Below, piece by piece: positions 51,639 through 56,617 of a DNA stretch of 64,000 nucleotides. The stretch is from Terriglobia bacterium (lineage in GTDB: Bacteria > Acidobacteriota > Terriglobia > Terriglobales > Acidobacteriaceae). Below the pieces are notes generated by a model, which saw nothing but the letters and a program-made list of their open reading frames with translations, made no database searches and was not told the DNA's origin. The translations under genes were made by a program, and so were the position numbers. The stretch spans positions 1 to 64,000 of the forward strand of contig JAJPJE010000055.1 of assembly GCA_021324365.1 (NCBI GenBank), in the 5' to 3' direction. Every line of letters starts with the position of its first letter. Position 1 is the first letter of the stretch.

Positions 51639-53795
51639 CTACGCGCGTTGCACGCCGCCGAGGGCTTCCAGTGCTTTTACAATCTGCGTAGCCCAGCCTT
51701 GCACTTCGTCATCACGCAGGGTGCGTTCAGCGGACTGAAACTCTGCGCGGAGCAGGACTGAGTACTTTCCGTCTGGAACATTCCCACCACGGAAAATTTC
51801 GACCGGGACAAACCTTCGTAGCTCGGTAATCGTCAGCGCTTCGATGGTCTGCTGAATGCGCTCGAAGGTTACGTCGTCGGCGAACAGGAACGAAAAATCC
51901 CGGTCTACCGCGGGGTAGCGCGGAATCGGCGTGTAATGCAGCTCGCGCAGGCCATGCTTGAACAGGCGCTCCAGGTCGAGCTCGGCCACAAAGATATCCT
52001 GGCGCAGCTTGCGTTCGGCCGCAATGCGCGGGTGAATCTGCCCGAACTGGCCGATGGTGGTGCCATCCACGACAATGCGCGCCGAACGGCCGGGATGATA
52101 GTAGTCCGCCGTATGTGCATCGTAATAGGCAGAGTTGTACTGGAAACCGGTGAGCAGAGTTTCGAGGTCGCCCTTCAGGTCGAAGAATGTATAGGTACGT
52201 GCATGCTGATGGACGCTGGCTTCGATAGCTACTCCCGTGGCACCCATCGCCAACCGTCGATATTCGCCGGTGCTGGTGCCCAGCTTCTCGTATACCTTTC
52301 CCGGCTCGAACAGCCGCACATCATTGACCCCTCGATTCAGGTTATGCGCGAGCATGTTCAGTATTCCCGGAATCATAGACGTTCGCATCACCGAAGCTTC
52401 TTCGCTCAGCGGATTAGCAATTTCGACTGGCTCCATCGTGGAGAAAGCCTTCGCATCCTCATGCGAGATGAAGGCCAGCGACATGGCTTCGTTGTAGCCG
52501 AGCGCCAGCACGCGGCTGCGCAGTTCGTTCTCCTTCGATTCGTCGGGGAGGGTAATGGCGCCACCTGTGAATCCTGGCAGCGTATTGGGGAACTTATCGT
52601 AGCCGTAAATACGCGCGATCTCTTCGATCAGGTCGATCTCGCGTTCAACGTCGAGGCGCCACGTGGGAACCTGTACGGCAAAGTCGGCAACTTTTTCAGC
52701 GACCGCCGCGTGTGTGCCGCCCGAAACTGCCGGAATGACAGAAGTACGTGAGCTGGCGGCATGCAGGCGTCCGGGAGTTACACCGAAACCGAGTCGCTTC
52801 AGAATGCGGGTGATATCGATCTCGCCGATGTCCTGTCCGAGAATGCGTTCCACTTCGCGGCGGTGCAGTTCGAGCTTGGGACGCTCGATCTTCCGGCCAA
52901 TCGTATCAATGAGATCGCCTTCGACGTGCCCCCCGGCTGTTTCCACAATGAGCTGAGCGACACGATTAGCTGCAGTGGGTGTAATGCCGTAGTCTGCGCC
53001 GCGCTCGAAGCGGTGCGAGGCGTCTGTGTGCATGCCGAGCCTTCGTGCCGTGCGGCGCACAGTTGCCGGATCAAACCAAGCGGACTCGATGAGCACGTTC
53101 TTCGTCTTCTCGGTGATCATCGTGTCGAAGCCGCCCATGATGCCGGCGATAGCGACGGGCTTTACCGCATCGGCGATCACAAGATCCTGCGGGGTCAGCT
53201 TTCGTTCGACGCCGTCGAGCGTCTTCAGCGCTTCCTTTTCGCGAGCGAACCGCACCACGATCTTTGAGCCTTCCAGCAGGTCGAGATCGAAGGCGTGCGT
53301 CGGCTGCCCAAGTTCCCAAAGCGCGTAGTTGGTCGCGTCGGCAGCGTTATTGATCGAACGCGAGCCGAGAAGTGTCAGGCGGCGCGCGATGTACTCGGGT
53401 GACTGCCGAATAGTAACGCCGCGCACGATGCGCGCGGAGTAACGCGCGCACTCGTCAGGAGCCTGTATATAGATACGGAAAGAGGATGCGCCTTCGGCGC
53501 GTTTTAGGTTCTTCGACTCGGGCGCCCCGGAAATTCGTCCGACGCCCTCGTTCAGAATGACAGGAGAGATTCTTTTCAGGTCGACGTCGTAAATAGCGGC
53601 GCACTCGCGCGCAACGCCGTAGTGGTTCATCGCGTCGACGCGATTGGTGGTGATATCGACTTCGTAGATGCTGTAGCCGTCGTGCTCGTCGATGCCTTCA
53701 ACGGAGATGCCGGCCATCGAGAGGTCGTCAGCGAGTTGATGGTCGTCGACGTCTAGTTCAACGAAGTCGCGTATCCATGAGGGAAGAAGTTTCAT
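51639..53795 (-). CDS. pheT: Phenylalanyl-tRNA synthetase beta subunit, short form
   Basis: The beta subunit of the heterotetrameric enzyme charging tRNA-Phe. After the first 35 residues (SWIRDFVELDVDDHQLADDLSMAGISVEGI) the chain passes straight to DITTNRVDAMNHYGVARECAAIY. The usual tRNA-binding OB domain of about 110 residues between these points is missing. The B3/B4 editing region, catalytic-like core and the C-terminal anticodon-binding FDX domain (YPAVDRDFSFLF) are present. About 30 Ala/Ser-rich residues (near 342-370) are inserted before the WRLDVEREIDLIEEIARIYGYD motif. Total 718 against about 800 normally. Confidence 0.95.
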   Translation of the reverse strand: MKLLPSWIRDFVELDVDDHQLADDLSMAGISVEGIDEHDGYSIYEVDITTNRVDAMNHYGVARECAAIYDVDLKRISPVILNEGVGRISGAPESKNLKRAEGASSFRIYIQAPDECARYSARIVRGVTIRQSPEYIARRLTLLGSRSINNAADATNYALWELGQPTHAFDLDLLEGSKIVVRFAREKEALKTLDGVERKLTPQDLVIADAVKPVAIAGIMGGFDTMITEKTKNVLIESAWFDPATVRRTARRLGMHTDASHRFERGADYGITPTAANRVAQLIVETAGGHVEGDLIDTIGRKIERPKLELHRREVERILGQDIGEIDITRILKRLGFGVTPGRLHAASSRTSVIPAVSGGTHAAVAEKVADFAVQVPTWRLDVEREIDLIEEIARIYGYDKFPNTLPGFTGGAITLPDESKENELRSRVLALGYNEAMSLAFISHEDAKAFSTMEPVEIANPLSEEASVMRTSMIPGILNMLAHNLNRGVNDVRLFEPGKVYEKLGTSTGEYRRLAMGATGVAIEASVHQHARTYTFFDLKGDLETLLTGFQYNSAYYDAHTADYYHPGRSARIVVDGTTIGQFGQIHPRIAAERKLRQDIFVAELDLERLFKHGLRELHYTPIPRYPAVDRDFSFLFADDVTFERIQQTIEALTITELRRFVPVEIFRGGNVPDGKYSVLLRAEFQSAERTLRDDEVQGWATQIVKALEALGGVQRA

Positions 53796-55099: not shown

Positions 55100-55456
55100 C
55101 TACGCCAGCGCGGACTTGGCCTGTTCGGCGAGGGCCTTAAACCCGGCGCTGTCGTTCACGGCGAGGTCGGCCAGGATCTTGCGGTCCAGTTCGACGCCGG
55201 CCTTCTTCAGGCCGCTAATGAACTTGCTGTAGCTGAGGCCGTTCTCGTTCGCGGCGGCACCGATGCGCACGATCCACAGTGAACGGAACTGACGCTTCTT
55301 CTGGCGGCGTCCGGCATAGGCGAACTTCAGTCCGCGTTCGACCGACTCTTTCGCTGAGCGGTACAGTTTTGACTTTGTTAAGAAATAGCCACTTGCGCGA
55401 TCTAATATCTTTTTGCGCTTGGCGCGACGTTTGGTTCCACGTTTTACGCGGGGCAT
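55100..55456 (-). CDS. rplT: 50S ribosomal protein L20
   Basis: L20 binds 23S rRNA early in large-subunit assembly. The 118 residues match the family throughout: [22 protein letters not shown], the central [34 protein letters not shown] and [17 protein letters not shown] at the end. It is third in the infC-rpmI-rplT cluster. In other bacteria L20 represses its own operon by binding its leader mRNA. Whether the spacer before it holds such a site is unknown; it contains an inverted repeat. Confidence 0.97.
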
Positions 55457-55652: not shown

Positions 55653-55847
55653 CTAGTACGGAATCATCCGAAGGACCTTGCGTTCGTCGGCCTTGGCAAG
55701 CATGACATCCTTGTCCAGGTGACGCTTTTTCTTGGTGTCCTTCGACGTTAGAATGTGGCGCGCGAAAGCGTGACCGCGCTTTACCTTGCCGGTCCCGGTC
55801 TTCTTGAAGCGCTTGGCGGCGCCACTATGTGTTTTCAGTTTCGGCAT
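55653..55847 (-). CDS. rpmI: 50S ribosomal protein L35
   Basis: A 64-residue, strongly basic protein of the large subunit. [34 protein letters not shown] is the family signature. The gap to infC is 107 bases and to rplT 196 bases, longer than in compact operons. The start ATG at 55847 fits the family. Co-transcription with infC is expected, as in most bacteria. Confidence 0.97.
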
Positions 55848-55954: not shown

Positions 55955-56617
55955 CTATTGATTCGCTGCGCCGGATCCAGCCGTACCAGCCGCCGACTGG
56001 GGCGCGCTCGCGGCGTGGCCACCCGGCTTCGCCTGCTGAGGCTTCTGACCCGCAGCACTGGGCGCCTGTTTCGGTGCACCGCCACCACCCTTGCCGCTCT
56101 TTTCTGTCTTAGGCGGAGCAAGGATCGCGTGCAGGGTGTTGCCTTCCTGCCGGGGCATGTTCTCGACGATCGCACGATTCCCGATATCTTTGATCAGCCG
56201 CTGCAACAGTTCGCGTCCAAGGCCGGTTCGCGTCATCTCGCGACCGCGGAAAAAGATCGTCGCCTTGACCTTATCGCCCTCTTCCAGGAAGCGAAGCGCA
56301 TGGTTCTTCTTGGTCTCGTAATCGTGGTCGTCCACGTTAATACGAAACTTCACTTCCTTGACGGTGATGATTTTCTGATGCTTTTTGGCTTCGCGTTCTC
56401 TCTTTTCCTGCTGGTAGAGGTACTTGCCGAAGTCCATGATGCGGCAGACAGGAGGTTGCGCCGTAGGCGAAACCTCAACTAAATCCATGTTGCGTTCCCG
56501 GGCGATTCTGAGCGCCTCCTGCGGGGTCATGATGCCAAGCTGATTGCTTTCATCGTCGATCACGCGGATTTCGCGTACGCGAATGCGCTCGTTGGTGCGA
56601 ATAAATCTCTTGTCGAT
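55955..56617 (-). CDS. infC: Translation initiation factor IF-3 with C-terminal extension, AUC start
   Basis: IF-3 checks the start codon on the small ribosomal subunit. The family N-terminus (FIRTNERIRVREIRVIDDESNQLGIM) is only complete when read from an ATC at 56617, placed 5 bases after GGAGG; the first ATG in frame is 18 codons later and would cut into the domain. Rare AUU/AUC starts are known for infC and allow self-control. The N-domain, linker (YQQEKREREAKKHQK) and C-domain (VKEVKFRINVDDHDYETKKNHALRFLEEGDKVKATIFFRGRE) are normal. About 50 extra residues from about 169 on are Gly/Ala/Pro/Gln/Lys rich. Confidence 0.93.
   Translation of the reverse strand: MDKRFIRTNERIRVREIRVIDDESNQLGIMTPQEALRIARERNMDLVEVSPTAQPPVCRIMDFGKYLYQQEKREREAKKHQKIITVKEVKFRINVDDHDYETKKNHALRFLEEGDKVKATIFFRGREMTRTGLGRELLQRLIKDIGNRAIVENMPRQEGNTLHAILAPPKTEKSGKGGGGAPKQAPSAAGQKPQQAKPGGHAASAPQSAAGTAGSGAANQ

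Follow-up and report, generated by a model that had tools for sequence, protein, structure and literature searches.

A bacterial-type phenylalanyl-tRNA synthetase β subunit without the OB domain B2 in Acidobacteriota and other bacterial phyla

The window (the whole stretch of 64,000 nucleotides that was analysed) carries a pheT gene whose product has no OB domain, which raises the question of how the phenylalanyl-tRNA synthetase (PheRS) of this bacterium deals with tRNA-Phe. The gene is a single intact open reading frame (ORF) adjoining pheS, with no internal stops in the translation; its domains and neighbours are listed in Table 1. In the NCBIfam comparison the protein passes the bacterial-type model TIGR00472 (575.6 bits, cut-off 402.65) and fails the archaeal-type model TIGR00471 (122.4 bits, cut-off 282.65). 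A profile search of the window genome gave one B3_4 match, and no second PheT was seen. The protein shares with the bacterial β subunits (TIGR00472; structures 1pys/2iy5 from Thermus thermophilus, 3pco from Escherichia coli, and 7k98 from Mycobacterium tuberculosis) the order B1, B3/4, B5, CLM (B6–B7), and B8/FDX-ACB, as well as the pheS–pheT gene pair. Pfam places B5 at residues 309–399 and CLM at residues 403–608. The window protein differs from these bacterial β subunits in having no EMAPII-like B2 and in a 30-residue loop in B5. The CLM core is also common to the archaeal/eukaryotic-type β subunits, in which B8 is described as missing (PMC3275996); the window protein has this domain. The window protein is a bacterial-type PheRS β subunit without the EMAPII/tRNA_bind-type OB domain (B2).

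Table 1. Location of pheT, its domains, and neighbouring genes in the window
Feature	Residues	Position	Strand	Basis
pheT, phenylalanyl-tRNA synthetase β subunit, OB-less	718 aa	51639..53795	minus	ORF and translation, TIGR00472, Pfam
B1 region, kept	1–72	53580..53795	minus	E. coli PheT alignment and N-terminal alignment; no Pfam match here
Junction at the OB/B2 site, predicted tight β-hairpin (E31–38/E41–47)	36–46	53658..53690	minus	alignment and model
B3/B4 editing domain, PF03483 B3_4	116–288	52932..53450	minus	Pfam
Ala/Ser-rich loop insertion in the B5 hairpin	342–371	52683..52772	minus	loop-length comparison and pLDDT
FDX-ACB (B8) anticodon-binding domain, PF03147, kept	625–711	51663..51923	minus	Pfam, 71.5 bits
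pheS, α subunit, Phe_tRNA-synt_N and tRNA-synt_2d	364 aa	53850..54944	minus	ORF, Pfam, and NCBIfam
rplT, upstream of pheT/pheS		55100-55456	minus	named from reading the sequence, not by family search
rpmI, upstream of pheT/pheS		55653-55847	minus	named from reading the sequence, not by family search
infC, upstream of pheT/pheS		55955-56563	minus	named from reading the sequence, not by family search

The Pfam scan of all 718 residues gave no match to the tRNA_bind OB domain (PF01588); the same scan of E. coli PheT, the positive control, returns tRNA_bind at residues 45–145. In the alignment, residue 39 of the window protein pairs with E. coli residue 39 and residue 40 with E. coli residue 154, and E. 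coli residues 40–153 (114 residues) have no counterpart. The stretch 36–46 consists of 11 residues, as compared to 122–154 in OB-bearing loci. These results agree with a preliminary description of the locus, which had reported the OB domain missing between ISVEGI and the DITTNRVDAM block and was right in its estimate of about 110 residues; it gave no strand for the gene, which lies on the minus strand. When the window protein and 55 aligned OB-less homologues were scanned with Pfam, tRNA_bind was found in none of the 56, and B3_4, B5, CLM, and FDX-ACB in all of them. OB-less PheT passes the TIGR00472 cut-off in 15 of 15 genomes, one of them after neighbouring pieces were added. B2 is typical of bacterial PheT, yet the cut-off is reachable without it.

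An AlphaFold2 model of PheT was built from 56 aligned sequences (mean pLDDT 90.8, pTM 0.65). Given the pTM, the way in which the domains are placed relative to one another is predicted less reliably than each domain by itself. At the junction, the predicted strands E31–38 and E41–47 form a tight hairpin, with block-mean pLDDT of 96 and 93 over residues 31–50. The top solved matches of the model (Foldseek and VIA-align) are bacterial PheRS β chains with Z scores of 40 to 48, for example 1pys_B (Z 46.8, rmsd 6.0 over 658 residues). Where PheRS has an OB domain, this domain appears to sit between the two strands of the β-hairpin that links B1 to B3. In the OB-less protein, alignment and model show that these strands join directly and that the fold of the remaining subunit is preserved. 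As the OB domain would be an insert in a hairpin loop, its absence may be possible without disturbing the rest of the subunit.

The B3_4 profile was searched over 199 genomes of Acidobacteriota, and PheT was examined in a non-random choice of 87 of them: the window genome itself, the 30 best matches, 40 chosen by taxonomic place (many from the family of the window, otherwise mostly one per family), and 16 with weak or odd matches or an unlisted place. Bacterial PheT without the OB domain was found in 77 of these 87 genomes. Three carry an OB-bearing PheT (L057, L058, and L082), all from one family (f47), and five (G162, G064, G046, G003, and G008; loci L091–L095) give a match to the core only, as is typical of an archaeal-like PheT of about 600 residues; in two (G116 and G143) there was no match to the PheT core. 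Two of the archaeal-like proteins were typed (L092 and L095); both are TIGR00471 (468 bits), and neither matches the OB part of TIGR00472. The OB-less form is the usual PheT architecture among the Acidobacteriota examined, and the window protein is ordinary for its phylum. A separate feature was seen in OB-less proteins of family f23 (L087–L090) and of Holophagaceae/Geothrix (L112 and L134), where part of CLM also aligns poorly, with a gap at about residues 504–620 of the window protein.

A search of genome contigs with a DNA pattern specifying the OB-less junction gave at least 118 loci. The first 80 (L107–L186) all match PheT across the junction. The alignment took in 106 of the at least 118 loci, 104 with the 11-residue junction, a constant length that follows from the search pattern itself, and 2 in which the best ORF lacks the N-terminus; 9 of the 12 outside the alignment are cut at the locus end. 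Judged by record titles, the loci beyond Acidobacteriota belong to at least seven other phylum-level groups, some represented by a single locus: Omnitrophota, Planctomycetota, Syntrophomonadaceae (Bacillota), SAR86 and other gammaproteobacteria, Elusimicrobia, Kiritimatiellae, Patescibacteria/Levybacteria, and TA06. Most of them are metagenome-assembled genomes, and at least one label is doubtful, since the TA06 locus (L202) and a proteobacterial one (L140) are near-copies on the tree.

The frequency within individual phyla was surveyed with the TIGR00472 profile. The OB state was classed by hand from the start of the match, and the phylum label is the record title of the survey centre. Each survey includes its own OB-less centre genome, and small OB-less counts are therefore biased upward. 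Omnitrophota are OB-less in 35 of 38 genomes, with none OB-bearing, one (G360) not classed, and two without PheT. Planctomycetota are mixed (26 of 59 OB-less, 17 OB-bearing, 14 with core-only or weak matches, 2 without PheT), and Bacillota are mostly OB-bearing (52 of 61, with 7 OB-less and 2 without PheT). In Verrucomicrobiota (1/39) and Pseudomonadota (1/80, with one further core-only match and one genome without PheT), the only OB-less genome is the chosen centre, from SAR86 in the latter case; OB-less PheT is rare in both phyla. The term lineage-specific used in the preliminary description holds in that the architecture is a trait of whole lineages, with the insertion narrower still; it is too narrow in that the same architecture occurs in several other phyla. 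No publication dedicated to OB-less bacterial PheT was found among the literature matches listed, as judged on titles and the starts of abstracts in a search that mostly left out the subscription literature.

To follow the OB state, a PheT tree was calculated from 83 chosen rows (63 OB-less, 20 OB-bearing) with the OB columns excluded. The tree was made by a quick method and is unrooted; 23 of its 80 inner branches are open, and many rows have an odd composition. The OB state requires seven changes on it, at least three of them forced by starred branches. A single clade of all OB-less forms was tried and rejected (p-AU 2.85e-06). The Syntrophomonadaceae nest inside OB-bearing Bacillota (set starred 97), and SAR86 and its kin lie beside OB-bearing Gammaproteobacteria (94). 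One genome of the class of the window (G187, locus L056) has an OB-less PheT that groups among OB-bearing forms of Planctomycetota (starred), apart from its own class. On this unrooted tree we infer losses of the OB domain in all three cases, in the last together with gene transfer. The OB-bearing PheT of f47, represented in the tree by two of the three loci, groups away from the other Acidobacteriota and was probably acquired through transfer, replacing an earlier form. Most of the Acidobacteriota examined lack B2, a state that recurs in several other phyla and has more than one origin. The archaeal-like PheT of some Acidobacteriota, together with the core-only or weak matches in 14 of 59 Planctomycetota, points to repeated replacement of PheRS.

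When the tree is rooted on archaeal-like PheT, the deepest fork separates the f47 rows, which carry the OB domain, from all others, with many open forks and with long branches meeting. For the bulk of the Acidobacteriota, the OB domain may have been lost or may be primitively absent, and this rooting favours neither reading. We regard as unlikely the wider scenario in which some bacterial lineages would have a primitively OB-less PheT: a single insertion of the OB domain would have followed the divergence of the Acidobacteriota, and Syntrophomonadaceae, SAR86, and others would have lost the domain again afterwards. If the primitive reading were true, the bacterial PheRS kept by Acidobacteriota would date from before the OB insertion and would not be a reduced form.

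The remaining domains of the enzyme suggest how tRNA-Phe may be handled. PheT contains FDX-ACB and PheS contains Phe_tRNA-synt_N, both detected with Pfam. The alignment shows that the equivalents of E. coli H265, G318, E334, T354, and A356, which we take to be editing-site positions, are conserved in the window protein. In an alignment of 217 PheT rows (OB-less and OB-bearing, with some fragments and a few duplicates), H and G are each present in 216 rows and E in 214. A His and a Glu are given as editing residues of the T. thermophilus enzyme in a review, whose account of the bacterial β domains also lists the EMAPII-like B2 and has B8 touching the anticodon loop (PMC3275996). A structure paper counts eight domains in the β subunit and describes complexes of M. 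tuberculosis PheRS with tRNA in which contacts are made by the N-terminal arm of α, by β6, and by β8, and in one complex by the β3/4 editing site; among the contacts described in the passages covered, none by β2 is named (PMC12447630). In the part of PMC4014445 covered, no mention of the OB domain was found. The OB fold of Trbp111 is described as binding the 3' CA end common to all mature tRNAs, and fused OB domains as raising the charging efficiency of other synthetases (PMC11286949), so the loss of the domain may cost something. Among the literature matches listed, no OB deletion assay was found.

Taking the kept domains and the published complexes together, charging of tRNA-Phe and proofreading most likely proceed in the usual manner in this enzyme. 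The coiled coil of PheS would lie on the corner of the tRNA and B8 on the anticodon, with B3/B4 serving for editing. The OB domain would be a non-essential, low-specificity aid to tRNA capture that was lost more than once; that it is dispensable is the most likely reading of its distribution. We give a probability of about 0.82 to this reading as a whole, that is, an OB-less bacterial-type PheRS with ordinary charging and proofreading, a dispensable aid lost repeatedly, and a loop in B5 that is probably functionless. Planctomycetota and Bacillota each include relatives with and without the OB domain, which makes the role of B2 directly testable. A search for tRNA-Phe in the window genome (95.4% complete), made with unusual identity elements in mind, found none by two anticodon-arm patterns and ARAGORN on 21 loci; as 14 of the 34 pattern matches lay outside the scan, this is not evidence of absence.

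Three other explanations of the missing domain were weighed. That a frameshift, an assembly gap, or a wrong start conceals it has a probability close to nil. The protein has B1, which continues into B3 in the same reading frame, and the OB stretch is likewise missing in 76 other acidobacterial genomes and in the 80 loci preselected by the junction pattern. The intact frame and the independent genomes rule an artefact out, and no evidence in its support was found. Supply of the domain in trans, whether from a free OB protein or from MetRS through its own OB domain, is highly improbable. The missing domain belongs to the PF01588, or Trbp111-EMAPII, family (MetRS C-terminus, Trbp, CsaA, YtpR), of which only MetRS was found in the window genome: a search for a separate gene gave the C-terminus of MetRS as the sole PF01588 match in the 95.4% complete assembly, and the same search found matches in 14 of 14 control genomes. 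In favour of supply in trans, MetRS of the window genome carries an OB domain; no free-standing OB match was found there. In Planctomycetota and Omnitrophota, genomes with an OB-less PheT usually have a stand-alone OB gene as well, encoded by a short frame of, in most cases, about 110–170 residues. For Planctomycetota, a hand count gave a short-frame OB match in 23 of 26 OB-less genomes versus 0 of 17 OB-bearing ones, which would favour supply in trans; however, lineage is a confounder of this association, and the count was made with the PheT model rather than PF01588, so that other OB genes may be missed. Six regions with free OB genes were looked at, four as lists of ORFs and two with the protein typed. 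The typed proteins (L272:2706-3029 and L273:2686-3006), one from each of the two phyla, both score best with MetRS models; one passes metG_C_term (133 versus 116.65 bits), and the other falls just under (115) and has the full MetRS model as its best hit. They look like parts of MetRS rather than a replaced part of PheT.

The third explanation takes up the different way of holding tRNA-Phe that the preliminary description had suggested; other surfaces, such as the inserted loop or the long B1–B3 linker, would replace the OB domain. The domain is truly missing, and the window protein has two low-confidence segments (81–94 and 344–365) that are absent from E. coli PheT. Nevertheless, we consider the proposal very unlikely and unsupported by the data: the editing residues, FDX-ACB (kept in all 56 scanned proteins), and the N-terminal domain of PheS are all kept. 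The Ala/Ser-rich insertion of about 30 residues that had been reported along with it is real and lies in a variable loop of B5. The hairpin loop has 30 residues in the window protein and 5–7 (mode 6) in 160 of the 217 aligned rows. Only 8 of the 217 rows have a loop of 20 residues or more, too few for such a loop to be the general substitute for the OB domain. Residues 344–365 are predicted to be disordered by AlphaFold2 (pLDDT < 50). The insertion would have arisen recently as an unstructured loop and probably serves no function. A similar but shorter Ala-rich loop is present in another genus of the family of the window (L043); a second member of that genus (L044) has a much shorter B5 loop, and the Ala-rich loop is absent in L042 and others. 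Unrelated long B5 loops occur in L050, L081, L086, L197, and L224, and the insertion looks like ordinary loop turnover.
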